IMG/VR virus record: IMGVR_UViG_3300025816_000008
Coordinates: 1 to 64,000 of that record
Strand: one strand, 5' to 3'
From: a virus
Length of the DNA: 64,000 nt
Of this stretch, positions 2,660-19,231 are shown in pieces. Within the stretch, counting starts at the first letter, position 1. Each line of letters begins with the position of its first letter. The position numbers and the translations under genes were made by a program. The notes beneath the pieces are model-generated. The model had not been told where the DNA came from. It did no database searches and saw only the letters and a list, made by a program, of their open reading frames with translations.

Positions 2660-3263
2660 AATATTAAGTAACGGTCTTTCAGCCGTCGAAAAACTTTATG
2701 ATCAATCGATGTACGGCCATGTCGATTTGTTCAGAATAAAAGATTTAGTTCATTCACTTAAGCCTAATCATTGGATTGGTAAACAATGGTTAGTTGATGA
2801 GCTTTTAAAAGTTTACGATGGAGATGGAATTATACATTGCGCAGGTGGATGGTATGGTTTAATAGCGTATTTAATAAAGCAAAAGTTTCAAAACAATACA
2901 GTTATTTCTTCAGATATTGATGAATATTGTTCAACTTTAGGTAAAGTATTATTTAAAGACAAGGGTATTAATTTTTATGATATGGACATGGCTATAGCCA
3001 GTATTAAAGGCGGAGATGTTTTCATTACTACAAGTGGAGAGCACATTGACAAAGAAGATTTAGTTAGTATAATCAATATGTGTAGTTATAAATACATCGT
3101 AATACAATCGAATGATTATTTTGAAGTGGATTCTCATATTAACTGTTCAGAAAACTTAGAAGAATTTAAGAATTATCTACAACCAACACTATCTAAAATT
3201 TATTACTGCGGTGAATTAAACTTAGGTAAATATAATAGATTTATGATAATAGGAGAAAAATAA
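2646..3263 (+). CDS. putative SAM-dependent methyltransferase
   Basis: A 205-residue protein with a Rossmann-like start: a strand IIHCAGGWYGL (residues 62-72) with the glycine-rich motif I, then VISSDID (residues 86-92) supplying the acidic residue expected to bind the SAM ribose, and GGDVFITTSGEHID further on. These fit a class I methyltransferase of the small kind found in phage accessory cassettes. The substrate is unknown. The gene overlaps the glycosyltransferase upstream by 14 nt and the unknown gene downstream by 1 nt, so the three are a translationally coupled set. Confidence 0.6.
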   Translation: MQNVEILSNGLSAVEKLYDQSMYGHVDLFRIKDLVHSLKPNHWIGKQWLVDELLKVYDGDGIIHCAGGWYGLIAYLIKQKFQNNTVISSDIDEYCSTLGKVLFKDKGINFYDMDMAIASIKGGDVFITTSGEHIDKEDLVSIINMCSYKYIVIQSNDYFEVDSHINCSENLEEFKNYLQPTLSKIYYCGELNLGKYNRFMIIGEK

Positions 3264-3754
3264 TGAAAGACCATAAATTTGTAACAGCTCATTTTATTGA
3301 TGAGCAAAGAATGAATGTACAATCATATTGGCTCAATGAGGAGACTTCTGATATTATTGAAAACATCACCGAAGTGAAAAAATGCAATGCGGCTTGGAAC
3401 GAGTTATTAACTCATATTACTATCGATAAAATACATGAGAATACATATGAAAATATTAGAGCTTCAGATCTTGCCTTTAAAGATCTAGTAGTAGATATTG
3501 CAAAAGAGAGAAATCTAGTTTATGACAAGGCTGATATAATGTCAGCTGACGTGTGGAAAGTAATTGCTGGTGTATTTGTTAAATTTAATCCAGAGAAAAA
3601 AGAAGAATTGTTTTTCTTAAAAATGGAATTATTTGAAAATGAAATTATAAAACAATGTACTGATCGAGAACTGAAAAAAGATTTAAGAAAAGCTACGGAT
3701 TTTGTTTCTGCGATTGAAGTTGCTTGTAAAATGTATAGATTAGTCGAAGGATAA
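3263..3754 (+). CDS. hypothetical protein in methyltransferase/glycosyltransferase cassette
   Basis: A 163-residue mostly helical protein (MKDHKFVTAHFIDEQRMNV start) with good ribosome binding (aggagaaaaata before ATG). The first half looks beta plus helix; the second half is amphipathic helix with many Lys and Glu. No catalytic motif is recognised. It starts on the last base of the methyltransferase stop codon and ends 15 nt inside the 3' end of the convergent glycosyltransferase gene, with no visible terminator between them. Confidence 0.5.
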   Translation: MKDHKFVTAHFIDEQRMNVQSYWLNEETSDIIENITEVKKCNAAWNELLTHITIDKIHENTYENIRASDLAFKDLVVDIAKERNLVYDKADIMSADVWKVIAGVFVKFNPEKKEELFFLKMELFENEIIKQCTDRELKKDLRKATDFVSAIEVACKMYRLVEG

Positions 3755-4534
3755 ACCAAATTCTTTATTGACATGATGAATAAAATATGCCGCTTCGTTT
3801 ACATTTGGATATAAAGGATCTAATATAAAATTCCACTGTATTTCTAAATCGTTATGCGGAACGTTATATCTTTCAAGGAGATAGCTAATAAAGACTTCGT
3901 TGTTATGAAAAAAGTATTTAGATATTTCTTCTGGAAACATACAATCAGTTTGAGCTTCATTTAGCATAATTTTCATTTCTTCTAAGTGTCTAGAAAATTC
4001 TAGTTTTTTTATAGACTGAGAATCTCCAATTATCACTCCAGTATTATAAAGTTTATTATGTCCAGATATCCCATCTAATAATAACATAGAATTTTTTGCA
4101 GCTGTTTTACAAAAAACGCTATGTTGATCAAACAAGTGTAGATGATCTTTATTATTTTTATTTCGAATTTCCCATGCAATTTCTTTTTTAGTTAATTCTC
4201 TTTTTAAAGGATGCATTGATATTTTAGTTAAATCTACTGATTGAAAAATATCTTTAAAGATATGTGGAACAATATCAAAATCTAAGTATAATATCTCATC
4301 ATACTCTTCAGCATATTTTTCAAGTAGAAATATTTTTTCAAACTGAATTGAATCATAATTAGTAATGTCTGTTTCATGCAAAACGTATTCAGCATTACAT
4401 TTTTCAGCATATGCGCGTTGAGTTTCTTTAAGGTTATCTTTATATTTTATAAATTGAGATAACTTATATTTGTTCGTACTTATTGCTGTCTGCTCAACAC
4501 AGCCGTTATATATGCTATAAACAATTCTTTTCAT
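3740..4534 (-). CDS. putative glycosyltransferase (GT8-like, DxD)
   Basis: A 264-residue protein starting MKRIVYSIYNG, a typical first beta strand of GT-A enzymes. The segment EEYDEILYLDFDIVP carries the DxD at D85-F-D87, and YNTGVIIG (about residue 162) matches the conserved N-T-G strand of GT8-like transferases. The C-terminal AAYFIHHVNKEF resembles the HxxxKEF ending of its upstream paralogue. It overlaps that paralogue by 20 nt and has an AAAGG site before its ATG. Donor sugar and acceptor unknown. Together with the upstream gene it is probably a tandem duplication. Confidence 0.7.
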   Translation of the reverse strand: MKRIVYSIYNGCVEQTAISTNKYKLSQFIKYKDNLKETQRAYAEKCNAEYVLHETDITNYDSIQFEKIFLLEKYAEEYDEILYLDFDIVPHIFKDIFQSVDLTKISMHPLKRELTKKEIAWEIRNKNNKDHLHLFDQHSVFCKTAAKNSMLLLDGISGHNKLYNTGVIIGDSQSIKKLEFSRHLEEMKIMLNEAQTDCMFPEEISKYFFHNNEVFISYLLERYNVPHNDLEIQWNFILDPLYPNVNEAAYFIHHVNKEFGLSFD

Positions 4535-5438
4535 ACCAAACCTTTGCCCACTTAAATTCTTTATTGATTATATGTATGAATGCAGTTTTCTCAGGAACAA
4601 AATTAAAATTGTCCATGAACCAATGCCACTTTCTATTTATTTTATTAATTTTAACATTATTTTCATAGCATTTTACTGCAAACAATGTTTCATTATCCCA
4701 TCCAAATATTTCTTGAATATACTTAGGCCATAATGAAAATTCGTCTTCTCTTAATTCCGTCATTATCTCTAAGTACTCATCAAACTTATCAAAATAATTT
4801 AACTCTTCTAGTTGTGTTTTTGTTATGCCAACGATACCGGTATTAAACACACATATTTCTTTCGGAGCTTGAAATGTTAATTCTTGCATCATTGCCCTTG
4901 AATTCCAGTATTTAGCAGTAGGACTTCTTACACTTGCATATTTTCTTCCATCTAAACGATCAGCTTCTAATCTGCGTATAGTATCCGGATTATCTAATTC
5001 ATCCTGCACGCCTATAGCATAAGGTCTTTCGGCTCTAATAACTATTCCGGCTGTTAAATTCCATGCATCAAAAAAATTCTCTTTCGTAATAGGAAGAACA
5101 TCAAGATCTAAATATAATATTTCTTCAAATTCTTCTTTAAGAACGTACATAAGATGAATTTTATAAAAATTAACAATGTTATACGTAGTTAAGAATGGAT
5201 ATTTTCGTTTATATTCACTATCAAATGCTTTCCATTGATCATCATATTGATATAATCTATATTCTATTCCAATAGAATCGGCGTATGATCTTTGTCTTTC
5301 AGCTAACCAGTTTTTATATAGAGCAAATTCTCTTTTTGATTTATCATTTTTAGATTCGGTTTCTCCTTTAAACGGAGGCTGCCAATCTAATTCTTTTTCT
5401 GGTATATCAATATATATGCTAAAGATAATTCTTTTCAT
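4515..5438 (-). CDS. putative glycosyltransferase (GT8-like, DxD), paralogue of downstream gene
   Basis: A 307-residue protein starting MKRIIFSIYID. The metal-binding DxD is at D111-L-D113 in EEILYLDLDVLP; CVFNTGIVGI gives the N-T-G strand, and the C-terminus has AFIHIINKEFKWAK, matching the HxxNKEF of the next gene. Residues 12-50 are an insertion not found in the shorter paralogue. It is the first gene of a two-gene minus-strand unit. A TGATATAAT extended -10 sits just upstream at 5455-5463, and a GAGG site precedes the ATG. It likely transfers a sugar to a phage fibre or host glycan (inference). Confidence 0.7.
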   Translation of the reverse strand: MKRIIFSIYIDIPEKELDWQPPFKGETESKNDKSKREFALYKNWLAERQRSYADSIGIEYRLYQYDDQWKAFDSEYKRKYPFLTTYNIVNFYKIHLMYVLKEEFEEILYLDLDVLPITKENFFDAWNLTAGIVIRAERPYAIGVQDELDNPDTIRRLEADRLDGRKYASVRSPTAKYWNSRAMMQELTFQAPKEICVFNTGIVGITKTQLEELNYFDKFDEYLEIMTELREDEFSLWPKYIQEIFGWDNETLFAVKCYENNVKINKINRKWHWFMDNFNFVPEKTAFIHIINKEFKWAKVWYEKNCL

Positions 5439-5454
5439 TATTATTCCTCGTAAT

Positions 5455-5463
5455 ATTATATCA
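5455..5463 (-). promoter_or_regulatory. candidate extended -10 promoter for the glycosyltransferase pair
   Basis: On the minus strand the spacer between the divergent genes reads TGATATAAT, an extended -10 element. The expected -35 position holds only a poor match. The predicted transcript starts roughly 10 nt before the GAGG site of the gene beginning at 5438. The same TGATATAAT occurs in the candidate gene 55 promoter at 63734-63742. Confidence 0.4.
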
Positions 5464-5492
5464 TATATATATGAATGACAGAAGGACTTAGT

Positions 5493-6146
5493 TTGGAAAA
5501 TTATAATAACACCGTTGTAATAACTGCTGATAGAAATGGAAGTACTGCTTTTATTGAAAGCATAAAAAGAAATAACTATAATAGCACAGTTGAAATAAAT
5601 TTAGGAGAATGTTTTAGTCAAGATTATGGAAACCCAAGTCCCAAATTTTGGAATGAGCAAATATATAAGCCACCCCAAGTTATTGATGCTATTAATATTG
5701 GTACCGGAAAACGAGTGATAGTGAAATGTTTAATAACTTGGAAAAATTTTAATGAGTCTTATTTTGATATAAAATCTAAAAGAAAAATATTTTTATATCG
5801 AAATATGTTTGACAGCTCTTTGAGTAATTGTTTGGGCCAAAAAATTGGAACTTGGCACAATGATATGAGTACTGATACGCATACTATATCCAAAGAATTT
5901 TTTATTACAGTATTAGAATATCGAATAAAAAAATATAATAAGTTTTTAGATAAAATTTTAGATTGGACGAATGAAATTGTATTATACGAGGAATATAATT
6001 TTAAAAGAAATATACCACTAAGAAAACATCCAGACAGAAAGAAAATTGTTAGTAACTATGATGATCTAAAAGAAATATACAATGAATATGCGCATACTAT
6101 TAATACTATAGAAAATGATATATTGCTTGCTAAAGCAACACTTTAG
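5493..6146 (+). CDS. putative sulfotransferase-like protein
   Basis: A 217-residue protein. The N-terminal strand-loop VVITADRNGSTAF matches the 5'-phosphosulfate-binding loop (xxxRxGSTxL) of Stf0/LPS-type PAPS sulfotransferases, and KIFLYRNMFDSSLSNCL matches the 3'-phosphate-binding strand-helix (hhRxxxxxxxxS). I choose the TTG at 5493 because GAAGGA lies 6 nt upstream; the in-frame ATG at 5475 (six codons earlier) has only AT sequence before it. It lies alone between minus-strand units and is followed 15 nt later by another plus-strand gene. Acceptor unknown; a second sulfotransferase-like gene lies at 13126-13821. Confidence 0.6.
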   Translation: MENYNNTVVITADRNGSTAFIESIKRNNYNSTVEINLGECFSQDYGNPSPKFWNEQIYKPPQVIDAINIGTGKRVIVKCLITWKNFNESYFDIKSKRKIFLYRNMFDSSLSNCLGQKIGTWHNDMSTDTHTISKEFFITVLEYRIKKYNKFLDKILDWTNEIVLYEEYNFKRNIPLRKHPDRKKIVSNYDDLKEIYNEYAHTINTIENDILLAKATL

Positions 6147-6161
6147 CGAAAGGATATAAAA

Positions 6162-6701
6162 ATGGTTAACAAAAAATTTACAACTGCATTATATGGCAGT
6201 TTAAAAAGACTAGTATGGGCAGATCATTTTTATGAAGGAGATTTATCCTTTTTAAATAACAGCTTTGATTCACCAGGAAAAGTTCTAGAATATTTACCGG
6301 TGTACGAATATATGTTTAATCAAAATAATAAATTCTATGTTGGCGATTTAGACCCTGAAGATATAAACGATTATCAATACAATCATTCATATGATTTAGT
6401 ACAAAAATATTTAAAACCTAATCCATATTACCGTGAAAAATATATAACTTCTTCTTGGATATTAGCAAGTGATAATAAAAATAATAAAGATCCTGCATAT
6501 TTAAAAAAAGTTCTTCAAGTTAAAGCAGAATTAGTTGATGTAATTGATTTAGGTGATAGTCGGAATTTTGACAATGTAAGTGAAATAATTAGGAAAATTA
6601 AAATTATTCAACAATCAAAATGCTATATCGGATCCTATGGATCTTGGGAAAATATTACGCGAATATACAATAAGCCGATTGCAGTATTATACCCCACGTG
6701 A
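6162..6701 (+). CDS. GT-B/heptosyltransferase-like fragment or small glycan-related protein
   Basis: A 179-residue protein with a good site (GAAAGGATATAAAA before ATG). The C-terminal segment CYIGSYGSWENITRIYNKPI resembles the donor-binding loop of family 9-type glycosyltransferases (C-h-I-G-s-x-S-x-x-x-H-h-A-x-h-x-x-x-P). The N-terminal half (ALYGSLKRLVWADHFYEGDL) also resembles the start of phage GT9-like proteins. It is too short for a full GT-B enzyme, so it may be a truncated or single-domain relative. It converges on the radical-SAM gene with a 15-nt overlap. Confidence 0.45.
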   Translation: MVNKKFTTALYGSLKRLVWADHFYEGDLSFLNNSFDSPGKVLEYLPVYEYMFNQNNKFYVGDLDPEDINDYQYNHSYDLVQKYLKPNPYYREKYITSSWILASDNKNNKDPAYLKKVLQVKAELVDVIDLGDSRNFDNVSEIIRKIKIIQQSKCYIGSYGSWENITRIYNKPIAVLYPT

Positions 6702-7721
6702 TATCGTTGTTCCATCAACTGAATCTAAATACCAAACTTCTATTAAATTAATTAAATTTTCGGCTTCACTATAGTTACGATAACCTTTAACTTTTTTAAT
6801 CTCTTTATTTAAATATAAAATAATTTTTTGTAAATCCTTAGAAGAAGAATGTTTTATCGTGACATGCGTTGGATATAGAACTGTGTTATACCATAAAGTG
6901 CAATTATGTTTTTCAGTGAATCGTACAAATTCAATCATTTCTTCCCAATTCATGTTCATTGGATTTACCATAATTGAAAGATTTCTTTTGTTACTATGAC
7001 AATATTCTTTAAATATTTTAAAATATTTCATTAGTGTATCAAAAGAACCGTTTATACGAATTTCTTCATATCTTCGAGGTATTAAACTGTCTATACTAAT
7101 GTTTAAATGGATATTGCATTTATCAAGAATACCTTGAACTCTTTTGTTATAAACCGTTCCATTTGTCGCAATGTTAACCTTCAATTCCGGTTTTAATTCT
7201 CCAACAATATCAAGAAGATCGAGCAATATTTTTTGCGCAAAAGGTTCACCGCCGTTTACTCTCAACTCTGTGAGGTGTGGTATAAATTCTTTCATTTGTT
7301 CTAAAAACGTATTATCAAAGATTTGCGGTAATGGTGGAAGCTTATCTCTGTTCTTTCGAATACCACTACTTAAAATTCCACTACACATAATACATTCTAG
7401 ATTGCATTGATTGCTTAATTCAATTTCCATCATGGAAGGCATATTATTTACTGGATAATTCTGATATGCTTTTGCAAGAGGCCATACGCCGTCATCAATA
7501 TCTTTTTTACATTCAATACATCTATTTAAAAATTTATTTTCCTGTAAAGCATCTCGATATTTCTGGAACTTATCACCTTTCCATATATCCATTAGTGATC
7601 TGTCTTTGCCCCACATATCACACGATCCTGGAAGTTTCCAACAAGGAGCTACTCTACCAGTAAGTTGAATATACATGTTATTGAAAGGTGCATTACATGG
7701 TGTTGTTTGACCGTAACTCAT
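6687..7721 (-). CDS. radical SAM protein with N-terminal twitch/SPASM-like [Fe-S] domain
   Basis: A 344-residue protein. Residues 1-90 form a twitch/SPASM-like domain with Cys at 9, 27, 68 and 71 for an auxiliary cluster. The radical SAM core follows, with the CxxxCxxC motif at C106-C110-C113 (CNLECIMC), the GGEP motif at 157-160 (ELRVNGGEPF), and the NIATNGT and ISIDS strands of the TIM barrel. Known members generate a 5'-deoxyadenosyl radical; the auxiliary cluster usually binds a substrate or relays electrons. It is the last gene of the long minus-strand operon and starts 29 nt inside the preceding radical-SAM gene. Substrate unknown. Confidence 0.85.
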   Translation of the reverse strand: MSYGQTTPCNAPFNNMYIQLTGRVAPCWKLPGSCDMWGKDRSLMDIWKGDKFQKYRDALQENKFLNRCIECKKDIDDGVWPLAKAYQNYPVNNMPSMMEIELSNQCNLECIMCSGILSSGIRKNRDKLPPLPQIFDNTFLEQMKEFIPHLTELRVNGGEPFAQKILLDLLDIVGELKPELKVNIATNGTVYNKRVQGILDKCNIHLNISIDSLIPRRYEEIRINGSFDTLMKYFKIFKEYCHSNKRNLSIMVNPMNMNWEEMIEFVRFTEKHNCTLWYNTVLYPTHVTIKHSSSKDLQKIILYLNKEIKKVKGYRNYSEAENLINLIEVWYLDSVDGTTISRGV

Positions 7722-8814
7722 TTTCTAATATCTCATTCCATTTAGGAAACGCTGTTGCAAAATCATTGTTTCTCATTTTATCATATTTAGTTATATGAGC
7801 ATAAAACTTATTTATGTGGTTTTCTCCGTCAAGCATCATGCGTCTCATGATTTTTTTTATTCTTTCATCTTGAGTATCTTTAAATTTATTGCAAATAATT
7901 TCTTTTACATCTATTGGTAAATTAGCTATGTTTAAATATGAAGGACTTTCTACATATTGAATTGATACCGGTGTGTTGAAATCATCTGCATATTCTAAAA
8001 ATTCATCGATGTAATATATATTATACCAATTCATGGTGCAGTTAAACATGATTTTACCATAAAAGTTTTTTGTAAATTTGATAAAGTTTTTTTCAATAAT
8101 ATTAAAATCAGATCCTTCTCTTTGATAATCATTTCTTTCGTAAATATCATCTAAACTAATTCGAATATCTAAATTAGATAAAGATTTTAATTGATTTACA
8201 AACTTATCATTCCAATGCGTGCCATTTGTTACCATTAAAGTTTTAATTTTATTAAGACCATGTTTATCAATATAAGTCATAATCTTTTTAATTTCTTCGT
8301 TTACAAAAGGTTCTCCACCCGCAAAAAGAATATATTTAGCGTCATTCAACCATTCATTTACGATTGGCTCATGATGTGTATCTATGATTTTGTGTTTTAG
8401 AAAATGTTTACGTACTTCAATTGTTTCAGTTTCTTTTGCTATTTGACTTGAATTAAATGATCCGCACATCCTACATTTTAAATTGCAAACATTTGTAGTT
8501 TTAAATTCAAAATATATTGGATTATCTTCTACTATAGGAGAGTTAAATTTTTTATCTTTGGCCCATCCATTAATTACACTTCTTAAACTTTCATTGCCTG
8601 ATTCTTCAGCAGTCCAACAGTCAGAACATGCTGCAGGTTTTTCATCATTTAAAAATTGAGTTCTTAAATCTTGAAAGTTTTGATTGTTCCAGCCTTCATC
8701 TATTCTTTCATTATCTAAATTTGATAAAGGTGTTTTATATCGACAACACGGGAGTAGTACCCCTCTTGGATCTATAGAAATATGAGTGAACGGAGCAGCG
8801 CAGAAATTTTTCAT
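7693..8814 (-). CDS. radical SAM protein with N-terminal twitch/SPASM-like [Fe-S] domain
   Basis: A 373-residue protein. I start it at 8814 because that ATG forms an ATGA overlap with the upstream stop and the auxiliary-cluster Cys begin right after it; the frame is open 16 codons further. Cys 5, 23, 24, 63 and 66 form the N-terminal twitch/SPASM-like site (CAAPF ... LPCCRYK ... CSDCW). The radical SAM motif is CNLKCRMC (C110, C114, C117), followed by ILFAGGEPF and LMVTNGTHW. It shares domain order with the downstream gene, so the two are paralogues. It may act on a peptide, sugar or small molecule; nothing in the sequence decides this. Confidence 0.85.
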   Translation of the reverse strand: MKNFCAAPFTHISIDPRGVLLPCCRYKTPLSNLDNERIDEGWNNQNFQDLRTQFLNDEKPAACSDCWTAEESGNESLRSVINGWAKDKKFNSPIVEDNPIYFEFKTTNVCNLKCRMCGSFNSSQIAKETETIEVRKHFLKHKIIDTHHEPIVNEWLNDAKYILFAGGEPFVNEEIKKIMTYIDKHGLNKIKTLMVTNGTHWNDKFVNQLKSLSNLDIRISLDDIYERNDYQREGSDFNIIEKNFIKFTKNFYGKIMFNCTMNWYNIYYIDEFLEYADDFNTPVSIQYVESPSYLNIANLPIDVKEIICNKFKDTQDERIKKIMRRMMLDGENHINKFYAHITKYDKMRNNDFATAFPKWNEILENELRSNNTM

Positions 8815-9203
8815 CTTTCGACAGTACAATGCTTTTTGCAAACATGTGGAGCGGTGTTCCAATCTTCTCTTAATTCTTCTAATTCATTATACCAATCAGA
8901 ATTTAAAATTTGTAAAATACTTTTATTATCTAGATTATATTCATCTTCATTTTCTATATATGTTTTATACATTGGATTACGATCTTCAACTCCAGTAGCA
9001 ATAGCTTCAGAATTTTGTAAACCGTTTTGTATAGATTCTTGATCGGTATTTCTAGGATCAATAGTTCCTTTCTTAGGATAACCAAATTGTTTTGCAACAT
9101 ATATTGTATTTGCAAAAAAACAACAAGGATAGACTTGACCATCTGGGTTTACGTTATATTCATTATTATTAAAGAAAGAACATCTTATTTCTTTAGTTTT
9201 CAT
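8811..9203 (-). CDS. free-standing SPASM-like iron-sulfur domain protein
   Basis: A 130-residue protein with no radical SAM motif. It contains C8, then PDGQVYPCCFF with C27-C28, and ends in C122-x3-C126 (HVCKKHC). The pattern C-x(n)-G-x-(V/I)-x-P-C-C-x(n)-C-x3-C is the signature of SPASM/twitch auxiliary cluster domains, which are normally fused to a radical SAM core. Here it is a separate gene, coupled by ATGA overlaps on both sides to radical-SAM genes. I infer that it works in trans with the core encoded immediately upstream (9200-9946). Confidence 0.65.
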   Translation of the reverse strand: MKTKEIRCSFFNNNEYNVNPDGQVYPCCFFANTIYVAKQFGYPKKGTIDPRNTDQESIQNGLQNSEAIATGVEDRNPMYKTYIENEDEYNLDNKSILQILNSDWYNELEELREDWNTAPHVCKKHCTVER

Positions 9204-9946
9204 ACTAGTATCCTTTTTGCTTCAAGCAAATTGTCTGTTTCTTTTGTTAGAAGCAATTCAGTAAATTTTGTAATTTTTTCTGGAGCGTATAAAGTTTCTA
9301 CTTTATCTTCGTACACGAATTTAAATGGGTCTAAGTTTCTATTGAATCTATTTGACGGACAAATATACATGTAGCAAGCACCATTGTCGTATGCTAATTT
9401 TGCTATTTTTTTAATATCATTTTCATTATGTTTAAATACCACAGTATATACTTTTGCCTCTGAGCCTGATTCAGTAAAAGCTTTCATATGAAGTAGAACT
9501 TTATCGAGTTCAGTTTTTCTTCTATAAGTGGCATGCTGTTCTTGAGTAGCTCCATCTATAGCAAAGACTACAGTTAGTCTGAGATTATATTTATAATTTA
9601 AGGTTCCTAAATTCCACCAAAATTCTTCATTTCTCATACTGCCATTTGTATTAATTAAAATTTTAACTCGTCTTGAACTTTCTAAAATATATGTAATTAT
9701 TTCTAAAATATCTTTATTCATCATTGGATCACCCCATGTACCACATAGGATAATTTGTTTGTACAAATAAAAATCTCGTGTAGGGAATCTTTTTTGAAAG
9801 GTTTCCAATGACCATTGTACAAGAGGAAGCCAATAGTTTTTCTTAGAAATATCTTCTTGATCTGTTCTATGGCATTGTGGACATGCAGCATTACAATAAG
9901 TAGATAAATCGACCATTGGTTTTAGTCTCTTTATTTTATAAGGCAT
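9200..9946 (-). CDS. radical SAM core protein (lacks fused SPASM domain)
   Basis: A 248-residue protein. The radical SAM motif CNAACPQC is at C18-C22-C25, unusually close to the N-terminus. The expected GGEP position reads IILCGTWGDPMMN, the C-G-x-x-x-D-P-x-M-N variant shared with the paralogue at 10213-10827. Further shared segments are VVFKHNENDI and PSNRF. There is no C-terminal Cys-rich region; the SPASM-like domain is supplied by the next gene, with a 4-nt ATGA overlap. Likely an adenosyl-radical enzyme of unknown substrate. Confidence 0.8.
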   Translation of the reverse strand: MPYKIKRLKPMVDLSTYCNAACPQCHRTDQEDISKKNYWLPLVQWSLETFQKRFPTRDFYLYKQIILCGTWGDPMMNKDILEIITYILESSRRVKILINTNGSMRNEEFWWNLGTLNYKYNLRLTVVFAIDGATQEQHATYRRKTELDKVLLHMKAFTESGSEAKVYTVVFKHNENDIKKIAKLAYDNGACYMYICPSNRFNRNLDPFKFVYEDKVETLYAPEKITKFTELLLTKETDNLLEAKRILV

Positions 9947-9947
9947 A

Positions 9948-10241
9948 TCATTTCTTTCTTTTAAGTCTGGTGATTTCTTTTATTTTATCACCATTACAAT
10001 AAATATAACAAATCTTTGCACCATTGCCATGTTTTAATTTATTATAAAAATTAATCCATTCTTTTGATTCTATTACATCTTCAATCTTTTCAATGTTAGT
10101 TAACTTAAACTTTTCTTTGACAAGATCTTTCATATCACCTTCAAAAAGTTCAGGACGGTCGGCCCAACAACACGGTAATATATATCCACGAGCAGTGTGA
10201 CCTAATTGATGATCAGCATTTAGACATTTTGGAACTACCAT
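9948..10241 (-). CDS. free-standing SPASM-like iron-sulfur domain protein
   Basis: A 97-residue protein with C6, a Gly-Tyr-Ile-Leu-Pro-Cys-Cys segment (C24-C25) and a C78-x3-C82 pair near the C-terminus, before a basic tail. This is the same C ... PCC ... C-x3-C pattern as the 130-residue protein at 8811-9203, and no radical SAM motif is present. It begins 29 nt inside the upstream radical-SAM core gene and ends 1 nt before the next core gene. The order core-SPASM-core-SPASM implies one pair for each core. Partnership is inferred from order and coupling. Confidence 0.6.
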   Translation of the reverse strand: MVVPKCLNADHQLGHTARGYILPCCWADRPELFEGDMKDLVKEKFKLTNIEKIEDVIESKEWINFYNKLKHGNGAKICYIYCNGDKIKEITRLKRKK

Positions 10242-10827
10242 AATTTCTTTCTATATAATACTTAGTTGGTTTATAAGAATCATTTTTAACAAACCGACTA
10301 GATTTTACTAATTCAAATTTAATATTATAATGTTTAGCTATATTTTCGCAATTTTCTATATCATTTTCATTGTACTTAAATACTATATATCTCCATGTAG
10401 AGTTGAGTCCCATCGATGCACATAACTTCATTGCTTCGAATAATGCTTCTCCGTCTTGGTTAATACGATATTTGTGACTATCTTCGGGGTATCCATCTAA
10501 ACCAAATATCCATGTTGCATTTTTATTTGCGTTAAATGCCTTTTCATACCATGATATTTTTTTACCTGTTGCTGCATTATGCACTTCACAGAAAATATTT
10601 TTTTCATAATTTAATTTTAGAAAATTAATAAGGTTTGGATTCATTACAGGATCAGAAGCATTGCCACAAAAAATTATAGAATCAAAGTAATTAATGATTT
10701 TTTTATATTCGTGTAAAGATAAATCACAACCTGGAACTTTTAAATTATTAGTTCTATAAGTTTTTCTTAAACACTTAGAGCATTCTAAAGTACACTTATG
10801 ACTTATACACAAATTAATTGATTTCAT
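10213..10827 (-). CDS. radical SAM core protein (lacks fused SPASM domain)
   Basis: A 204-residue protein when started at the ATG at 10827, which begins MKSINLCISHKCTLECSKC and lies 4 nt after the nitroreductase stop; a start 20 codons earlier would overlap that gene. The cluster motif is C12-x3-C16-x2-C19. The GGEP position is IIFCGNASDPVMN, and IVFKYNENDI and KSSRF match the paralogue at 9200-9946. It is small for a radical SAM enzyme and has no auxiliary-cluster Cys of its own. It pairs with the SPASM-like gene overlapping its 3' end. Confidence 0.8.
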   Translation of the reverse strand: MKSINLCISHKCTLECSKCLRKTYRTNNLKVPGCDLSLHEYKKIINYFDSIIFCGNASDPVMNPNLINFLKLNYEKNIFCEVHNAATGKKISWYEKAFNANKNATWIFGLDGYPEDSHKYRINQDGEALFEAMKLCASMGLNSTWRYIVFKYNENDIENCENIAKHYNIKFELVKSSRFVKNDSYKPTKYYIERNYGSSKMSKC

Positions 10828-10831
10828 AAGA

Positions 10832-11512
10832 TTAAATAACTTTTGAAATATCAACGGACAAGATATGTTTTCGCATACTATTTCCATCTTTAACTATTAT
10901 TTTTTTAGACATTTTTGGAAATATAAAACTTGAATCAAAATGATGTTCACGACTATTTCTTGCATGATCTTCGAATCCTACTCCTACCATAAGTAATACT
11001 TCTTCTCCAAACATTTCTTTTATTTCTGGCATACTATGTTGTGCGTTATAAAAACCTGTTTTATAACCAAGAAGATGTGCAGTAAGTGTAAGGTATGCAG
11101 AAGCTATCCCCACTGCTCTACCTTCATCAAGTAAAGCTCCAGGATTTAATTTAATATTTTTACCATCAGTAATCCCCATAGCGTATTCAACTTCTGTTCT
11201 AGGTTTTTCTGAATAATCTCTATCGCGAATAAACACTACAAGCAAATTAGCCATGATTTGAGAATTAGTAACAGCTAAGCGAGGGTCGAATTGATAAACA
11301 AAAGACTTAGTAGTTTCTAATATATATTCTATAACATCGCTGTCTGTAATAAACACAGGACTATAGAACACTCTGTTTTGTTTAGAAGGACATTCTTTAA
11401 CAGCGGTTTTTAATATATCAATATGTTCTGCTGGAATTTTTTTTGTTAAATCCCAATTTCTTTGACAGTGTTGAGATTCTTTAATTATCCTCTTTAAATC
11501 TAGATTGTTCAT
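10832..11512 (-). CDS. nitroreductase-family flavoprotein
   Basis: A 226-residue protein. The N-terminus (ESQHCQRNWDLTKKIPAEHI ... AVKECPSKQN) has the R-N/S-x-R-x-F-like and P-S-x-x-N pattern of FMN-binding nitroreductases, and AVGIASAYLTLTAHLLGYKT is the conserved helix of the family, followed by G-F-Y. Members are FMN enzymes using NAD(P)H to reduce nitro groups, quinones, enones or flavins. The ATG at 11512 is preferred over the upstream TTG because it overlaps the desaturase stop as ATGA and has GGAT upstream. It may supply reduced flavin or act on an intermediate in the operon pathway (inference). Confidence 0.75.
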   Translation of the reverse strand: MNNLDLKRIIKESQHCQRNWDLTKKIPAEHIDILKTAVKECPSKQNRVFYSPVFITDSDVIEYILETTKSFVYQFDPRLAVTNSQIMANLLVVFIRDRDYSEKPRTEVEYAMGITDGKNIKLNPGALLDEGRAVGIASAYLTLTAHLLGYKTGFYNAQHSMPEIKEMFGEEVLLMVGVGFEDHARNSREHHFDSSFIFPKMSKKIIVKDGNSMRKHILSVDISKVI

Positions 11513-12249
11513 ATTTTTATCCAATTTATGATTTTAGCTTGCAAGTCGAATTCCCACCATTGTTCACCATGAGTATATTTTTTTTGATTTGCGTGATGGT
11601 TATTATGCCAACCATCGCCTAATGTTAAAATGCTAACTAAAAAAGAATTATATGAATGATCTAACGTATCGTGATTTCTATATCCCCATTTATGAACAAT
11701 TATGCTACCTAACATTGTATTAGTAAAAACAACTGTTATTGGTATACAGAAGAATATTATTAATCCAATTAAACCACTGATGCTGGTAATAATAAAGCCC
11801 CATAGTAATAATAAATATATGTAGTTGTTATGAACAAATATTTGAATTTTATCGTGTATTAAATCTCTTAATGTTTTAAATCCTACTGGTTTTTTCCCTA
11901 AATATGTACAAAGCCATATGCTCAATATAGAATGATGATGTGGACTTTGTGAATCTTCTAAAGTGTCTGAAGTTTTATGATGGTGTCTATGTAATGCAAC
12001 CCATGATAGTGGAGAACCTAAAGCACACGGAATACTTATAAAAATTAACACGATTTCAGTAATTCTGGACACAGTAAAGCCTCGATGAGCAAAATATCTA
12101 TGTAAAGAAACACCTTGTCCAATAACATGAAAAAATAATCCGACGATTAATCCATATATTAAATATTTAAAATCAAATGTAAATAATGCAAATGCAGTAG
12201 CGACATGGGATACTAACCATATTAGTCTTAAAACATATAAAGAAATCAT
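11509..12249 (-). CDS. membrane fatty-acid desaturase (delta-9/acyl-lipid type)
   Basis: A 246-residue protein with all three His boxes of membrane diiron desaturases: HRYFAH at 50-55, HRHHH at 87-91 and HNNHH at 215-219 (LGDGWHNNHH). Hydrophobic segments at about 8-45, 65-85 and 142-185 give four membrane spans. Known enzymes of this class insert a cis double bond into acyl chains using O2 and electrons from ferredoxin or cytochrome b5; no b5 domain is fused, so a separate carrier is needed. It is paralogous to the protein at 13821-14600 (shared HRY-x-x-HR, LGSP, CTYLGK/STYLGK). ATGA overlaps couple it to the peroxiredoxin upstream and the nitroreductase downstream. Confidence 0.9.
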   Translation of the reverse strand: MISLYVLRLIWLVSHVATAFALFTFDFKYLIYGLIVGLFFHVIGQGVSLHRYFAHRGFTVSRITEIVLIFISIPCALGSPLSWVALHRHHHKTSDTLEDSQSPHHHSILSIWLCTYLGKKPVGFKTLRDLIHDKIQIFVHNNYIYLLLLWGFIITSISGLIGLIIFFCIPITVVFTNTMLGSIIVHKWGYRNHDTLDHSYNSFLVSILTLGDGWHNNHHANQKKYTHGEQWWEFDLQAKIINWIKI

Positions 12250-12656
12250 AATTTTAATTTTTTTAATGTTAAAAGAACATCATTGACATGGCCATCAACA
12301 TTTACGTTTCTCCATTCGTATGCTATTTCTGATTTTTCATTTATTAAAAATGTAGATCGGTTTTCTACTTTAAATGCCTCTTTAGCAATTTTATTACTAT
12401 CGCATAAAAGTGGTATAGTTAATGAATATTTTTTTGCAAAATCATTATGACTTTCAATACTATCTTTAGATACACCAACAACTATAGTGTCGAGTTTTTT
12501 AAAATCATCTAAAGAATTTTCAAATTCTATGCTTTCACGTGTGCAGTGCGGCGTATCATCTTTAGGATAGAAAAATAAAACTAACCATGAAGGCCTTATA
12601 TCTTTAAGATATAAGTACTGGCCATGATTACTTAATAGCTTAATATCAGATATCAT
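12246..12656 (-). CDS. peroxiredoxin (Bcp/PrxQ-like)
   Basis: A 136-residue thioredoxin-fold protein. The active site FFYPKDDTPHCTRES has the peroxidatic Cys in the Bcp/PrxQ context (PxxxTxxCT, with His in place of the usual Gly before Cys). The resolving Cys often found five residues later is absent, so it may be a 1-Cys type or use the Cys in LLCDSN. VVGVSKDSIESHNDFAKKY and RSTFLINEKSEI are the usual family segments. It probably removes H2O2 or lipid peroxides made during O2-dependent desaturation and hydroxylation, as suggested by its place among desaturase and oxygenase genes. Confidence 0.85.
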   Translation of the reverse strand: MISDIKLLSNHGQYLYLKDIRPSWLVLFFYPKDDTPHCTRESIEFENSLDDFKKLDTIVVGVSKDSIESHNDFAKKYSLTIPLLCDSNKIAKEAFKVENRSTFLINEKSEIAYEWRNVNVDGHVNDVLLTLKKLKL

Positions 12657-12664
12657 AATTAATC

Positions 12665-13126
12665 CTATTCAGTTTCTGCAGATTCAAATATTGTGATTGC
12701 AATTCTAGTTTCTGTTATATCGTATATATTATGAAACTTGCTTAGGTCTAAAAAATACCATTGTTTTTCAGGTAATACAACTCTTTCAATTTCGTTTTTA
12801 TCATCGTCAAACCAAACTGTACTAACATTTTCTCCGCCGCTTTTAATAATATAATTAAAAGCTGCAGCTCTACCCTTATCTTTATGTATTAATAATTCTC
12901 TAGTAATAAGTTGTATTTTTATTTTCATATTATTTGCAAAATGTGGAGACAAATAATCTATAATTGCAGAGCTAGGTTGATGTAAAGAATACCATGGAAT
13001 TTCGTAATTTTCTCCATCTCTAGCTTCAAAAGTATTAATAGTCGTTCTAACATTTTCTTCGGTTATTTGATTTACAAGATTTTGTGGAAGATCCGGTAAG
13101 TCTGGATAATGTGTGTATAATCCCAT
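12665..13126 (-). CDS. putative 2OG/Fe(II) oxygenase-like cupin protein (short)
   Basis: A 153-residue protein. The C-terminal half has a double-stranded beta-helix pattern: H81-K-D83 (ELLIHKDKGR), a proximal NYII strand, then LDLSKFHNIY with H132 and R141 (TETRIAITIF). H-x-D ... H ... R is the metal and 2-oxoglutarate ligand set of Fe(II)/2OG dioxygenases. It is shorter than most, as seen for phage versions. It starts on the last base of the sulfotransferase stop (TAATG) with AAAGGA upstream. Substrate unknown. Confidence 0.55.
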   Translation of the reverse strand: MGLYTHYPDLPDLPQNLVNQITEENVRTTINTFEARDGENYEIPWYSLHQPSSAIIDYLSPHFANNMKIKIQLITRELLIHKDKGRAAAFNYIIKSGGENVSTVWFDDDKNEIERVVLPEKQWYFLDLSKFHNIYDITETRIAITIFESAETE

Positions 13127-13821
13127 TATAATATCCTTTTTTTAAAAATTTCTTTGATTTCATTTATATTTTTTATATAGTATTCTTTAGAAAATTCTAA
13201 ATTTAATTTATGAATATGTTCGTAATAGATACTAAACTTTCTAGTATTTATTCCATTTATTTCTAAATACTGTATTGGATCAATAGATAATTTTTCATAA
13301 TTAAGTATTATTGGATTTGATATGCTCAATATATAATTTTTATCTTTTTGCCATTGCTCTTCTATTTGAAAAAAGTTTAATGCATATTCAATTGGACATA
13401 CAAACGGTGGTATAATGTGTTTTTCATTATTTTTTTTATTCCATACATCACTGTGAAATGCTAAAATATAAGAGAGATATTGATCGTATTTGTTTTCTCT
13501 ATCAAGAAGAATTATATCATAATTCTTGACTATAAATTTTATTATTCTAAGATTTAAATGAGTAGAAATAATTTTAATAGTATTTTTACAATTATATTTT
13601 TTTAATAAATTTATTCTATATTCAATTTCTTCATTTAATGGAAAATATTCTCTATTACTTTTTAATAATCTTTCGCCGTTATCAATAGAACTCCAACCTG
13701 GATATACAGTATTAAAAAATTCATCATTTAATTTAATATTATAATCAGACGAAAAATCACGTAGCATCCTGAAAAGAAAAGTACTACCTGATCTCATTGG
13801 TGAAATTATAGCATAAGTCAT
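13126..13821 (-). CDS. putative sulfotransferase
   Basis: A 231-residue protein. The N-terminal IISPMRSGSTFLFRML (residues 5-20) is the PAPS 5'-phosphosulfate loop of Stf0/LPS-type sulfotransferases, and IILLDRENKYDQYLSYILAF is the 3'-phosphate-binding strand and helix. The rest is Lys-, Ile- and Asn-rich helices. It overlaps both neighbours by 1 nt (TAATG). Sulfation of a lipid, glycan or protein is possible; lying between a desaturase and an oxygenase, it may act on the same product (inference). Confidence 0.7.
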   Translation of the reverse strand: MTYAIISPMRSGSTFLFRMLRDFSSDYNIKLNDEFFNTVYPGWSSIDNGERLLKSNREYFPLNEEIEYRINLLKKYNCKNTIKIISTHLNLRIIKFIVKNYDIILLDRENKYDQYLSYILAFHSDVWNKKNNEKHIIPPFVCPIEYALNFFQIEEQWQKDKNYILSISNPIILNYEKLSIDPIQYLEINGINTRKFSIYYEHIHKLNLEFSKEYYIKNINEIKEIFKKRIL

Positions 13822-14600
13822 TAATCTGATTTTATTAATTTAACAAAATATTTTCCTAAATCGAATTCTCCAGGTTTATGATCCATATGCCATGAATTAG
13901 GATAGTGATGATGGTTGTTATGCAAAAACCCTCCCCAACTATACCAGCATAGTAGATAAGACATTAATCGTCTATTAGTAGAATTATCTTTTCTTTCAAA
14001 ATTCTTATACCCTTTGTCATGTTTGTCTGTGTGGTGTACTAATACTACGTTTAGCAAACTAAAACTATGAATAGTTATTACAGTTCCATAAATCATTCCA
14101 AACACAGCAATAGGCCACCAGATAATTAGTAATGTAATAAATGTTGTCCAATAGATTTTATAGAAGTTTCTATCTAGCCACATAACATACGAATCACGCA
14201 TCACATCTCTTGCTTGAAAAACGTTTATTTGTTCAAGCTTTCCCAAATATGTGCTATATAAACTAGATTTTATCAATCCGCTATTAGGGCTATGTGGGTC
14301 ATCATCAGTATCAGCGTGTGCGTGATGTTTTCGGTGCATGCATACAAAAAATATAGGAGATCCCAAGCCAGAAATAGAACCAAGGTATAATACAATCCTC
14401 TTTGTCCATTCTTTCATTTTAAATGATCGATGTGTTAAATACCTATGAAATCCAAGTTCAAAACCAAACTGGGAAGTTAATAAGTAGAAAAAAATTCCAA
14501 AACTTATGTAATGCCAATTATCGAATAATACTGGTAATGTGGAAAGCATTATAAGATGAACTGGAAAAAATATCTTTTTAGCATATTGCGTAAATTTCAT
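13821..14600 (-). CDS. membrane fatty-acid desaturase (delta-9/acyl-lipid type)
   Basis: A 259-residue protein when started at the ATG at 14600, which has GAGG 9 nt upstream; a second in-frame ATG at 14606 is only 3 nt from that site. His boxes HRYLTH, HRKHH and HNNHH are at 54-59, 91-95 and 229-233 (numbered from 14606). Hydrophobic spans at about 15-48, 72-90 and 152-188 fit a four-helix desaturase. FKMKEWTKRI, LGSP and STYLGK align with the paralogue at 11509-12249. It uses O2 and an external electron donor. The start lies inside the preceding oxygenase gene. Confidence 0.9.
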   Translation of the reverse strand: MKFTQYAKKIFFPVHLIMLSTLPVLFDNWHYISFGIFFYLLTSQFGFELGFHRYLTHRSFKMKEWTKRIVLYLGSISGLGSPIFFVCMHRKHHAHADTDDDPHSPNSGLIKSSLYSTYLGKLEQINVFQARDVMRDSYVMWLDRNFYKIYWTTFITLLIIWWPIAVFGMIYGTVITIHSFSLLNVVLVHHTDKHDKGYKNFERKDNSTNRRLMSYLLCWYSWGGFLHNNHHHYPNSWHMDHKPGEFDLGKYFVKLIKSD

Positions 14601-15288
14601 TTTCATTTTCCTCGTCTTCTAGTTGTCTTATATTAAACATCTTATCGCCATTTTGGATGAGTTTATCTGACGCTAATTGAAAAGATAAATTCACACGAGT
14701 TTCGTCATAAGGATTTGCAACAAAATGCGGTAAACAACTATTTAAATAATATGCATATCCTGGTTCTAACACATACACACCAAATTTTTCATTGATACTA
14801 TTTTTAACAAACACGTGATATTTTGTACTAATAGGTATATGGATTTTAAATCCATGAACTTCACAATTTAAATTATCTATATGTGGTTTAAGTCGTTTTT
14901 TCGGAGCAGCGCACATATATTGTTGCCTAAATGTTGGTCCAAAAGATTCAAGCACAGATTTAGTATTTTTCATTACTTCATCTTTTAAAATATTTGTGCC
15001 AAATTTACGTAATGAATACGAAATATAGTCGTTGCCATTCCAGCCTAATTTCACTAGATGTTTTTTTACTTCTTTTGGTGTAGCATCTATTAATATATCT
15101 TCAAGAGAATTTAAGAAATTATTTTCCAAGCTTTTAAAGGTATTGATGTATTCCTCAAAAAGTATGGCGGTGTTAAACGGCCCAGCGATACTAACTACTG
15201 CTGGATACTTTAAGTAATCACCAGTCACATTAACTGGAATTGTCTCGAAATCACCAATCGGCACAATATCATTTTTTAAGGTATCCAT
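14578..15288 (-). CDS. aspartyl/asparaginyl beta-hydroxylase-like 2OG/Fe(II) oxygenase
   Basis: A 236-residue protein. The catalytic fold starts with KKRLKPHIDNLN (H136-x-D138), continues HGFKIHIPI and PGYAYYLNSCLPHFVANP (H188), and closes with DETRVNLSFQL (R198). This H-x-D ... H ... R order, together with the PGxxxxxN-x-x-x-H segment, is typical of the aspartyl/asparaginyl beta-hydroxylase family, which hydroxylates Asp/Asn side chains or free amino acids. The first 120 residues are family-specific. GGAG lies 10 nt before its ATG. Confidence 0.75.
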   Translation of the reverse strand: MDTLKNDIVPIGDFETIPVNVTGDYLKYPAVVSIAGPFNTAILFEEYINTFKSLENNFLNSLEDILIDATPKEVKKHLVKLGWNGNDYISYSLRKFGTNILKDEVMKNTKSVLESFGPTFRQQYMCAAPKKRLKPHIDNLNCEVHGFKIHIPISTKYHVFVKNSINEKFGVYVLEPGYAYYLNSCLPHFVANPYDETRVNLSFQLASDKLIQNGDKMFNIRQLEDEENENEIYAIC

Positions 15289-15884
15289 ATTATGTGATCT
15301 CCGTATTTTTTATAACTTCTTTCTAATAAATCAAAGTGTTGTTTTTTATCTAGCCATATATGTAAAAACATAATGTATCTATTTGGATCATATATACTAT
15401 TCCAATGCCATATGTTTGTGTGCCCCATGACATACCAGTCAGTATCTTCAGGCAGTTCTGGATGAAAAACATTTTCACCTACTTCAATAGCTAAAGGATT
15501 TTTCACTTCTCCTTGTAAAATCATTCTGTATCCACATGGCTCACATTCAAGATTATGTTTATATAGATCAGGATTAACTTCAGGGTAAAAGAAATCTAAA
15601 TGTCTATGTTGTGGTCCTGCAGAATCCATTCTGTGAATTTTTACATTTACTAATTCTTTAATGGGTATATGTTGTTTTAAGTATTCCTTGAGCTTAAGTT
15701 GATTAACAGACATAGAATCTATCCATTTTGATTTACCATAATCTTTGCGTTTTTCAGTAAATCGCTGTAAACCATGAGCAAAAGGAATAGATTGTTCAAC
15801 ATATTCGTCGACAATAAACTTACTAAATTTAAATTTTGGGATGTCTACTGGCATCCATGCTATTTTAGAAAAATCAATATTCAC
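15276..15884 (-). CDS. 2OG/Fe(II) oxygenase-like protein (paralogue of 17198-17830)
   Basis: A 202-residue protein with a GTG start supported by AGGA 7 nt upstream. Metal ligands are H95-L-D97 (PQHRHLDFFYPE) and H160 (GHTNIWHWNS), with R169 (DPNRYIMFLHIW) for 2OG. It is paralogous to the protein at 17198-17830: both begin with an IDFxxIAxxPxDxP segment and end with a KYGD segment (LLERSYKKYGD here, LLTRSLEKYGD there). Substrate unknown. It overlaps the downstream gene start by 13 nt. Confidence 0.65.
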   Translation of the reverse strand: MNIDFSKIAWMPVDIPKFKFSKFIVDEYVEQSIPFAHGLQRFTEKRKDYGKSKWIDSMSVNQLKLKEYLKQHIPIKELVNVKIHRMDSAGPQHRHLDFFYPEVNPDLYKHNLECEPCGYRMILQGEVKNPLAIEVGENVFHPELPEDTDWYVMGHTNIWHWNSIYDPNRYIMFLHIWLDKKQHFDLLERSYKKYGDHIIWIP

Positions 15885-16608
15885 CGGTTAATCCTGTCTC
15901 TGATCTAAATTTGTCACTAAATGTTCCCCAAATTTTCATGCTAACTGCTAGATGGTTTATAGCATCGGCGCCGTGATAATCTCGCTCATTAAAAAAACAT
16001 GATGTGGAGGTAATATTAATTTTTTTATTTGTATCAGTATCGTATATAAAGAATGATTTTTCTGGAGTTATTTTAAACCATAGAAATTCTGACTTATGAA
16101 ACTGATCATCTGGCGTATGTTTATCAGCGTGAATCACTGTAGGATTCATTGATTCCACTATATAAAATACAACTTTTTTAATAGTTTTAAATGGCAAACA
16201 TTTAGACCATTCTACTAATTCAGGAAACAATTTTGCGTTTTCTGTCCAGTCACCCTTTTCCCATAATACTAATGTACTAAACGGCTGGCTTCCGCCCATT
16301 AATTTAAGAAATATTCGTTGTTGTTCTGGCTCTAGTTTGGTGTATATATTTTTACATTCTGATGAATCATCCATACTTATAATTTCGTTATTCTTAGGAA
16401 AAAGAGGAACTAATGGCTTTCCAACATAATTTACTATATTATGCAAGTCATTGGGATCAAGAAACTCAAACTCTGAATTAAAATATTCAGAAACGTACGG
16501 CTTACTTTTTGCAATACCTTCGTATATTTTAAGTCTAAGGGAATCTAATTTTGTTGCGTTAGTATATTCATCAGCGTTAAAGTATGACTTGCCTAAAATA
16601 CCTTTCAT
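15874..16608 (-). CDS. 2OG/Fe(II) oxygenase-like protein, unusual 2OG site
   Basis: A 244-residue protein. NPTVIHADKHTP gives H160-A-D162, a middle strand KSEFLWFKIT follows, and FFNERDYHGAD gives H212. The strand where an Arg normally binds 2-oxoglutarate reads NHLAVSMKIWG, with no Arg; Lys225 or another residue may substitute, or activity may differ. The AAGGAG site is well placed. Coupled overlaps join it to the GNAT-like gene upstream and the oxygenase downstream. Call rests on fold-like pattern and neighbours. Confidence 0.55.
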   Translation of the reverse strand: MKGILGKSYFNADEYTNATKLDSLRLKIYEGIAKSKPYVSEYFNSEFEFLDPNDLHNIVNYVGKPLVPLFPKNNEIISMDDSSECKNIYTKLEPEQQRIFLKLMGGSQPFSTLVLWEKGDWTENAKLFPELVEWSKCLPFKTIKKVVFYIVESMNPTVIHADKHTPDDQFHKSEFLWFKITPEKSFFIYDTDTNKKINITSTSCFFNERDYHGADAINHLAVSMKIWGTFSDKFRSETGLTGEY

Positions 16609-17201
16609 AATATCTCCTTCAATGCAAAATTATAATTGCTGTTAATTTTATAATAGAAAATAGTTTGTAGCGTATTGTTAAATAATACTGGCTTATTAAA
16701 ATATTCAAACTTTCCTAATAGAGGTTTGTTTTTATTTGATTTGCGTTTTTTTAAATAATTACTAAACACTTTAAGAGTTTTATTATGTTCATATATTGTA
16801 AAAAATATAGCTTGTTTGTTTATATTTTTAGCATAATCAAGATGCTGATCTATTACTCCATCTTTATGCCATGTATAATTGTTTGCTATCTGCCGGAATT
16901 CAAACAAAGAATACCGATGCATTAAGATTCTAACGCTATTATTGTGTATTGCAGCGCCAGATATACCAACGATCTGATCGTTAATCTTAATAGCTTCTAT
17001 ACAATCAAAATAAGTTTTATCCCATTTCTTGTTACTAAACTTATAGATCTCCTCGATAAACTTGTTATTATAAAACTTGTTAACAAGTTCGTTATAAGAA
17101 AAATCTATGCTAGCCGATGCGCCTAGTTCATTATAAACCTTATGTCTAAAATGTGTTAGGTCAAAATCCCATTTATCATAATATCTCTCTATTGTTATCA
17201 C
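16605..17201 (-). CDS. GNAT-like acyltransferase (weak)
   Basis: A 198-residue protein with a GTG start that overlaps the upstream TGA as GTGA. CIEAIKINDQIVGISGAAIHNNSVRILMH resembles the beta4-beta5 region of GNAT N-acyltransferases, and FFTIYEHNKTLKVFSNYLKK looks like the later helix, but the acetyl-CoA loop (Q/R-x-x-G-x-G/A) is not clear. The C-terminus is rich in Lys, Asn and Phe. It could be an acyl or acetyl transferase acting with the oxygenases around it, or an unrelated alpha-beta protein. Confidence 0.4.
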   Translation of the reverse strand: MITIERYYDKWDFDLTHFRHKVYNELGASASIDFSYNELVNKFYNNKFIEEIYKFSNKKWDKTYFDCIEAIKINDQIVGISGAAIHNNSVRILMHRYSLFEFRQIANNYTWHKDGVIDQHLDYAKNINKQAIFFTIYEHNKTLKVFSNYLKKRKSNKNKPLLGKFEYFNKPVLFNNTLQTIFYYKINSNYNFALKEIL

Positions 17202-17830: not shown

Positions 17831-17836
17831 TTTCGA

Positions 17837-18568: not shown

Positions 18569-18589
18569 TATACATCTCCTATGCGTACG

Positions 18590-19219: not shown

Positions 19220-19231
19220 TAGTTTATCCTT

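Follow-up and report, generated by a model that had tools for sequence, protein, structure and literature searches.

Separate, conserved genes for radical-SAM cores and SPASM/twitch-type domains in a viral genome record

We analysed a 64-kb stretch (the window) of the 90-kb IMG/VR virus record IMGVR_UViG_3300025816_000008, in which two genes for radical S-adenosylmethionine (SAM) enzyme cores are each followed by a small gene for a free-standing protein of the SPASM/twitch type. In characterised enzymes of this group these two parts are joined in one polypeptide. A first-pass annotation, made by a model from the letters alone, had given four open reading frames (ORFs) here, and these were found on the minus strand with the order and coordinates it reported (lengths in amino acids, aa):

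10213..10827, minus strand: radical-SAM core 1, 204 aa, with CxxxCxxC and CGNASDPVMN
9948..10241, minus strand: free-standing SPASM/twitch protein 1 (small 1), 97 aa, with C6, C24, C25, C78 and C82
9200..9946, minus strand: radical-SAM core 2, 248 aa, with CxxxCxxC and CGTWGDPMMN
8811..9203, minus strand: free-standing SPASM/twitch protein 2 (small 2), 130 aa, with C8, C27, C28, C122 and C126

The longest frame of core 1 begins at 10887, and the start at 10827 is the one that matches its homologues by eye. The last 29 nucleotides (nt) of core 1 are shared with small 1, and core 2 shares 4 nt (ATGA) with small 2, the frame of each small gene differing from that of its core. The two cores are 26% identical (E 2.6e-11). 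Core 2 matched Pfam Radical_SAM (PF04055) at 34.5 bits, above the cut-off of 29.5, and core 1 matched it below the cut-off (18.4 bits, E 0.0025). The small proteins, for which the first-pass annotation had suggested a profile search against SPASM, divided in the same way: small 2 exceeded the cut-off of Pfam SPASM (PF13186) with 30.5 bits against 21.5, and small 1 fell below it (19.1 bits, E 0.0017). Across the whole record, PF13186 found four domains at E up to 1, namely small 1, small 2 and the N-terminal domains of two fused enzymes. Neither core reached a curated cut-off in NCBIfam (W_rSAM_matur TIGR04317, BlsE TIGR04466 and others; for core 2, the best 25 of 34 families), the best score being 47 bits against 380. 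No PHROGs match better than E 0.015 was obtained with either small protein, and small 2 had no match among PDB sequences or among cultured phages (50,697 phage records).

Relatives were gathered from viral contigs, which supplied most of them, from genome contigs and from cultured phages, and were filtered and dereplicated at 90% identity. Each viral-contig search contributed at most its 80 best loci, so the viral contigs fetched are best matches and no random selection; among them the split state is the commoner one. The 118 dereplicated cores comprised 81 split from their small domain, 30 C-terminal fusions, 2 N-terminal fusions and 5 without an adjacent downstream partner. Both families contributed to these classes, the core-2 family with 49 split cores, 13 C-terminal fusions and 2 cores without such a partner, and the core-1 family with 32 split cores, 17 C-terminal and 2 N-terminal fusions and 3 without a partner. 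Core-1-type enzymes with an N-terminal small domain lie in loci L115 (5080-6234) and L129 (5044-6132). Assigned split partners started within 100 nt of the core end in 80 of 81 pairs, the exception (L071) being the second of two tandem copies. The commonest overlap was 4 nt (27/81). Two frame classes accounted for 43 and 36 of the 81 pairs, and 2 pairs lay in the core's own frame, one of them again the second member of tandem small copies. The core-1 pair is also split in the Pelagibacter phage Mosig EXVC030M, a cultured phage recorded as a complete genome, where it corresponds to genes 84 and 85; the Mosig small gene matched one of the 50,697 phage records, its own.

All 118 cores, like both window cores, carry CxxxCxxC. 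The first-pass annotation had drawn attention to a rare CGxxxDPxMN segment in place of GGEP; this segment is present in both window cores, but the strict ten-letter form occurred in 41 of the 118 cores (1/54 of core-1 type, 40/64 of core-2 type), and the version common to the families is the D at the E position of GGEP, found by pattern search in 118/118. The C...PCC...CxxxC pattern proposed for the small proteins was more than a chance feature. The fetched loci, taken without dereplication, contain 1036 ORFs of 80-190 aa. C...GxxxPCC...CxxxC occurs in 136 of them: 128 are assigned core partners, and the remaining 8 are additional or displaced copies within these loci.

The cysteines of the small proteins were nearly invariant. 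In the small-1 type, C6, C24, C25, C78 and C82 were kept in 30/30 split homologues; in the small-2 type, C8 was kept in 47/48 and C27, C28, C122 and C126 in 48/48. Most small proteins have five or six cysteines in total. The two small families were homologous by hhalign (probability 97.2, E 4.3e-11), and BLASTP gave no significant match between small 1 and small 2 of the window (best E 2.2). A full SPASM domain, with two auxiliary clusters, has been described as having seven or eight cysteines (PMC10352776), and twitch as a truncated SPASM domain with one auxiliary cluster (PMC9012708). Either small family has five conserved cysteines, fewer than a full SPASM domain, so one auxiliary cluster and a twitch-type domain would be expected. 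The small proteins, which the first-pass annotation had called SPASM-like, do match SPASM/twitch, and judged by their cysteines they are probably better called twitch-type than SPASM. The small ORFs had a median ratio of non-synonymous to synonymous substitution rates (dN/dS) of 0.154 and a maximum of 0.67 over 175 pairs, many of them non-independent, with 0.214 for the cores of those pairs.

Profiles made from split small proteins only were then scored on fused enzymes. On all 19 core-1-type fusions (17 C-terminal, 2 N-terminal) the type-1 profile gave 54-87 bits and the type-2 profile 0-15, and on all 13 core-2-type fusions the type-2 profile gave 72-113 bits and the type-1 profile 12-22. 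The split small proteins thus picked the cognate fused enzyme in 32/32 cases. Neither small-protein profile gave any score on the window's two fused enzymes with an N-terminal twitch domain. A pairing of small 1 with core 2, in the domain order of those two enzymes, was considered and rejected, since type-1 profiles gave 12-22 bits on core-2 fusions and nothing on the N-terminal twitch enzymes of the window. Within split pairs, core and small distances were correlated (r 0.78, n = 30; r 0.59, n = 48), exceeding all 2000 permutations (maxima 0.30 and 0.18).

As stand-ins for the window proteins, natural fused relatives were folded as single chains, with alignments that included split proteins. 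The core-2-type fusion L142 (354 aa, 40% identical to window core 2) reached a predicted local distance difference test (pLDDT) score of 94.1 and a predicted template modelling (pTM) score of 0.92; the core-1-type fusion L046 (301 aa, 49% identical to window core 1) reached 91.5 and 0.90. L142 matched SuiB with Z 20.1 (root-mean-square deviation 3.6, 280 residues aligned), BlsE with Z 19.8 (3.6, 263), MoaA with Z 17.9 (3.5, 257) and BtrN with Z 15.5 (3.3, 222). The corresponding values for L046 were 18.9 (3.6, 255), 18.4 (3.6, 255), 17.9 (3.6, 250) and 15.8 (3.5, 223), scores no more than 1 apart being read as ties. Both fused models match SPASM/twitch enzymes across nearly their full length, and the radical-SAM barrel fold is present in the fused homologues. 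The best PDB sequence match of the core-2 alignment was BlsE (E 9.8e-7), covering the core only.

A core tree was built with a quick method that left 37 of 115 inner branches unresolved, and partnerless rows were excluded from its state counts. It placed the two window cores in two separate families (SH-like approximate likelihood ratio test, SH-aLRT, 100). Split and fused members occur in both, and at least eight changes between the two states are required, four in each family. The nearest relatives of the window cores lie in other contigs (63% and 56% identity), against 26% between the window cores themselves. The window pairs are therefore no recent tandem copy. The first-pass suggestion of a core/SPASM pair duplicated as a unit is not supported if the duplication is taken to be local or recent. 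This history leaves two alternatives, that a split pair was duplicated long ago or that splitting of fused genes recurred. With outgroups included, the fused cellular gene L176 joined the core-2 family (support 100/92); L176 has a long branch and an odd composition, and the two phage families as one clade were not rejected (approximately unbiased test, p-AU 0.27). Core-1 and core-2 families co-occurred in 21 of 87 core-2 loci (not dereplicated).

In cells, a core-2-type profile (E <=0.001) found matches in 35 of 299 genomes of one phylum, including the metagenome-assembled genome (MAG) used as centre. Eleven of the other 34 matches (L176-L186) comprised ten single genes of 349-376 aa, with SPASM-like cysteine spacing after the core by eye, and one with an in-frame stop. 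Among L176-L186 the small-protein profiles scored clearly on L176 only, so most of these eleven are distant. Among 150 PF13186 matches listed from 60 genomes no complete free-standing SPASM gene was found: 148 lay in frames of at least 309 aa, and the other two frames, of 116 and 152 aa, are truncated where their contigs end. The genome-contig scan yielded three core-2 relatives. One of these contigs, L169, assigned to a Parcubacteria MAG, is as long as an IMG/VR record (11,572 bases) and has its core-2 gene as far from the start as in L118, so it could be of phage origin and have been placed in the bin of the MAG. The neighbourhood of the closest cellular homologue held housekeeping genes and no functional clue among the ten proteins scanned.

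The separate frames, their conservation, the cognate pairing by profile, the confident fold of the fused counterparts, the correlated divergence and the lack of a complete free-standing SPASM gene in the cellular sample are what the data show directly. With these in hand, we consider it most likely that each core/small pair forms a heterodimeric twitch-type radical-SAM enzyme of two polypeptides, although we infer the complex, its cluster content, translational coupling and electron transfer, as well as the island identity and substrate discussed below. The core would bind SAM and the catalytic [4Fe-4S] cluster. Four or five cysteines of the small subunit would hold a single auxiliary [4Fe-4S] cluster, and the subunit would dock on the core at the site that the fused domain occupies in BlsE, SuiB or BtrN. 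Translation is probably coupled through the overlapping frames, and the window would carry two such enzymes, from two old families. The first-pass annotation had proposed that core and SPASM-like protein work as two polypeptides; that they are separate, conserved and equal to one fused enzyme elsewhere is borne out, and that they work jointly is likely.

Several observations weigh against this heterodimer. Plain Foldseek alignments were looser (BlsE, template modelling score 0.51 and 0.64 by query length), and docking is read off fused homologues with the 40% (core 2) and 49% (core 1) identity given above. The nearest neighbour was common to core and small protein in only 20/30 and 19/48 split pairs, and correlated distances would also be expected from adjoining genes that are merely co-inherited. 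Three of the five partnerless cores had no small gene in the available stretch, two of them with short downstream sequence. The small proteins could instead carry their auxiliary cluster as free proteins shared by several cores, or act as electron carriers, and would then not be fixed subunits, a reading that we regard as rather unlikely. It would fit the loci in which the small gene lies upstream of the core (L011-L013 and L146, near-identical at the small gene), is present in tandem copies (L105, L106 and L071, plus the near copy L072) or lies behind a 540-aa B12-binding radical-SAM gene (L088 and L089). In L088 this gene (4573-6195) separates the core from the locus's sole small SPASM/twitch gene. 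Two further loci have the small SPASM/twitch domain fused to a glycosyltransferase (GT)-like domain with the core separate (L065 4638-5723 and L069 4618-5676, 73% identical over the fusion protein), and PapB has been reported to be capable of intermolecular electron exchange, also with a radical-SAM enzyme to which it is unrelated (PMC10470005). Free carriers fit poorly with a small type that tracks the core type in every fused enzyme scored, with distances that correlate within types, and with the position of nearly all split partners close behind their cores.

Artefact and decay are two further rival readings. The existence of fused relatives and the mostly short overlaps are what one would see if sequencing or assembly frameshifts had broken single genes, and a sequencing error joining each pair into one frame was one of the refuting cases named in the first-pass annotation. 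The census of split relatives and the cultured Mosig genome exclude it: overlap lengths vary, the frames fall into two main classes and the small frame is under purifying selection, and we give frameshift artefacts next to no chance. Overlaps in two main frame classes, which leave no conserved site, also speak against a single programmed frameshift. Nor do the split enzymes look like decaying remnants, a reading that the repeated switching between states on the tree might invite and that we hold to be very improbable. All cores retain CxxxCxxC, the cysteines of the small proteins are nearly invariant and dN/dS is far below 1 in most pairs, even the highest value staying under it; the same features disfavour pseudogenes. 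The core/small split is thus conserved and no error, and the observation is more general than first stated.

Five other genes of the window lie close to the two pairs:

7693..8820, minus strand: radical-SAM enzyme with a fused N-terminal twitch domain (NF033640, 284.3 bits, cut-off 170)
6687..7721, minus strand: second radical-SAM enzyme with a SPASM/twitch domain fused at its N-terminus (139.4 bits with NF033640, short of the same cut-off)
10832..11512, minus strand: nitroreductase-like, by eye only (best NCBIfam match E 0.086)
4515..5438, minus strand: glycosyltransferase-like, by its DxD motif (no Pfam or PDB match; type found in 41/101 related loci)
3740..4534, minus strand: second glycosyltransferase-like gene of the same type, by alignment only

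The nitroreductase was rejected as a neighbour shared with Mosig, as the window protein has no BLASTP similarity to the Mosig nitroreductase. A dense run of oxidative genes occupies 11509-19852 on the minus strand, with three fatty-acid-desaturase-like genes, three Asp/Arg-hydroxylase-like genes (one below the Pfam cut-off) and a peroxiredoxin, plus a weak match to Stf0-sulphotransferase. The Mosig pair also has a desaturase, an Asp/Arg hydroxylase and a peroxiredoxin annotated next to it. On the plus strand, 20704-33987 is an open frame of 4427 aa with a YadA-head match just under the Pfam cut-off, perhaps a tail-fibre-type protein. In pelagimyophages the host-recognition island has been placed between the VrlC gene and gp14, a neck gene. 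It carries tail fibres and glycosyltransferases, and radical-SAM cassettes have been described as a difference between two of these phages in this region (PMC7029224). Another survey described 12 radical-SAM genes in one marine viral genome of the T4-like kind (PMC5332604). T4-type neck, sheath-stabiliser or terminase genes occurred in 13-20 of the 101 related loci. By this analogy the window genes probably lie in a host-recognition island, that of a virus resembling pelagimyophages. The phage is probably a marine one.

Similarity of fold leaves the substrate of these enzymes unfixed. GT-like ORFs of two types were found in 51 of 101 related loci (a count without a control frequency elsewhere in such islands). 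In 12 loci such an ORF comes straight after the small-domain ORF, which is a fused enzyme in 9 and split in 3, and in 15 it immediately precedes a core. A carbamoyltransferase was present in 23 of the 101 loci, an epimerase in 8 and a DegT aminotransferase in 6; by eye, a methyltransferase-like gene occurred in 37 and an SGNH-like gene in 20. Locus L119 contains a 571-aa frame (2905-4620) with two tandem GT-like domain copies, by eye. The GT-like neighbours and the GT fusion to the small protein are a weak hint of glycan modification, and we take a sugar or glycan to be the likeliest substrate of the window enzymes, at about even chances. Telling against it, the GT assignment is itself weak: the GT nature of these families rests on an invariant DxD and weak matches, with a best PDB match of E 0.14 and Pfam Nucleotid_trans at E 0.038 in one of 11 members, and the other GT-like family (A5) had no PDB match. 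The same heterodimer might instead modify peptides or proteins, such as those of the tail or the surface, a possibility that we hold to be the less probable of the two and that overlaps with the explanation preferred here. The top structural neighbours include the peptide-modifying SuiB, SkfB and anSME, and the window has its three Asp/Arg-hydroxylase-like genes and the nearby 4427-aa frame. A peptide substrate is at odds with the best PDB sequence match, BlsE, which is a cytosylglucuronate decarboxylase, and with the GT-like, carbamoyltransferase, epimerase and DegT aminotransferase genes of the related loci.

More tentatively, phages may possess radical-SAM enzymes of a modular class, their auxiliary-cluster domain being a free subunit gene that can be copied, relocated, joined to the core at either terminus or joined to a glycosyltransferase. 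Cores and auxiliary clusters could then act in trans, in varying combinations, on glycans of the host-recognition island. The role of the auxiliary clusters in SPASM/twitch enzymes has been described as partly known (PMC9012708), and a naturally separate auxiliary subunit would allow a cluster to be added, removed or swapped with the core unchanged. The two-gene layout would let the core and the iron-sulfur part be tested, exchanged and combined. It also corrects an annotation, that of the Mosig small gene, which was deposited as 'hypothetical'.

In the parts of the open-access literature covered by our searches we found nothing that describes these phage genes or a SPASM/twitch domain that is split off or stands alone, and the closest known arrangements each differ from the window pairs. 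LipS1/LipS2 lipoyl synthase likewise consists of two gene products, in place of the single one used by others, but each is described as having both a SAM cluster and an auxiliary cluster of its own and as catalysing one step (PMC9585515), with no division between core and auxiliary domain. The N-terminal twitch radical-SAM proteins of NF033640, of which the island holds one member above and one below the cut-off, resemble two dereplicated core-1 relatives in having the small domain at the N-terminus, but they are fused, in the opposite domain order, and their two window members get no score from the split-small profiles. In Campylobacter phage CP220, related cores lie in a cluster with nucleotide-diphospho-sugar transferase annotations; these are longer single genes (326-342 aa) and fall outside both window families on the tree. 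Mosig has its split core-1 pair, annotated as a molybdenum cofactor enzyme and a hypothetical protein; the core-2 pair was not found there in the searches made. The characterised SPASM/twitch enzymes (SuiB, BlsE, SkfB, anSME, MoaA, BtrN, PqqE) likewise combine a radical-SAM core with an auxiliary-cluster domain, which has been described as a C-terminal extension of the core in the same chain (PMC9012708; the usual core/SPASM fusion is also described in PMC7159879). They are one chain where the window, and 81 of 118 dereplicated cores, have separate genes, and the D at the E position of GGEP, found in all 118, sets those cores apart from them.

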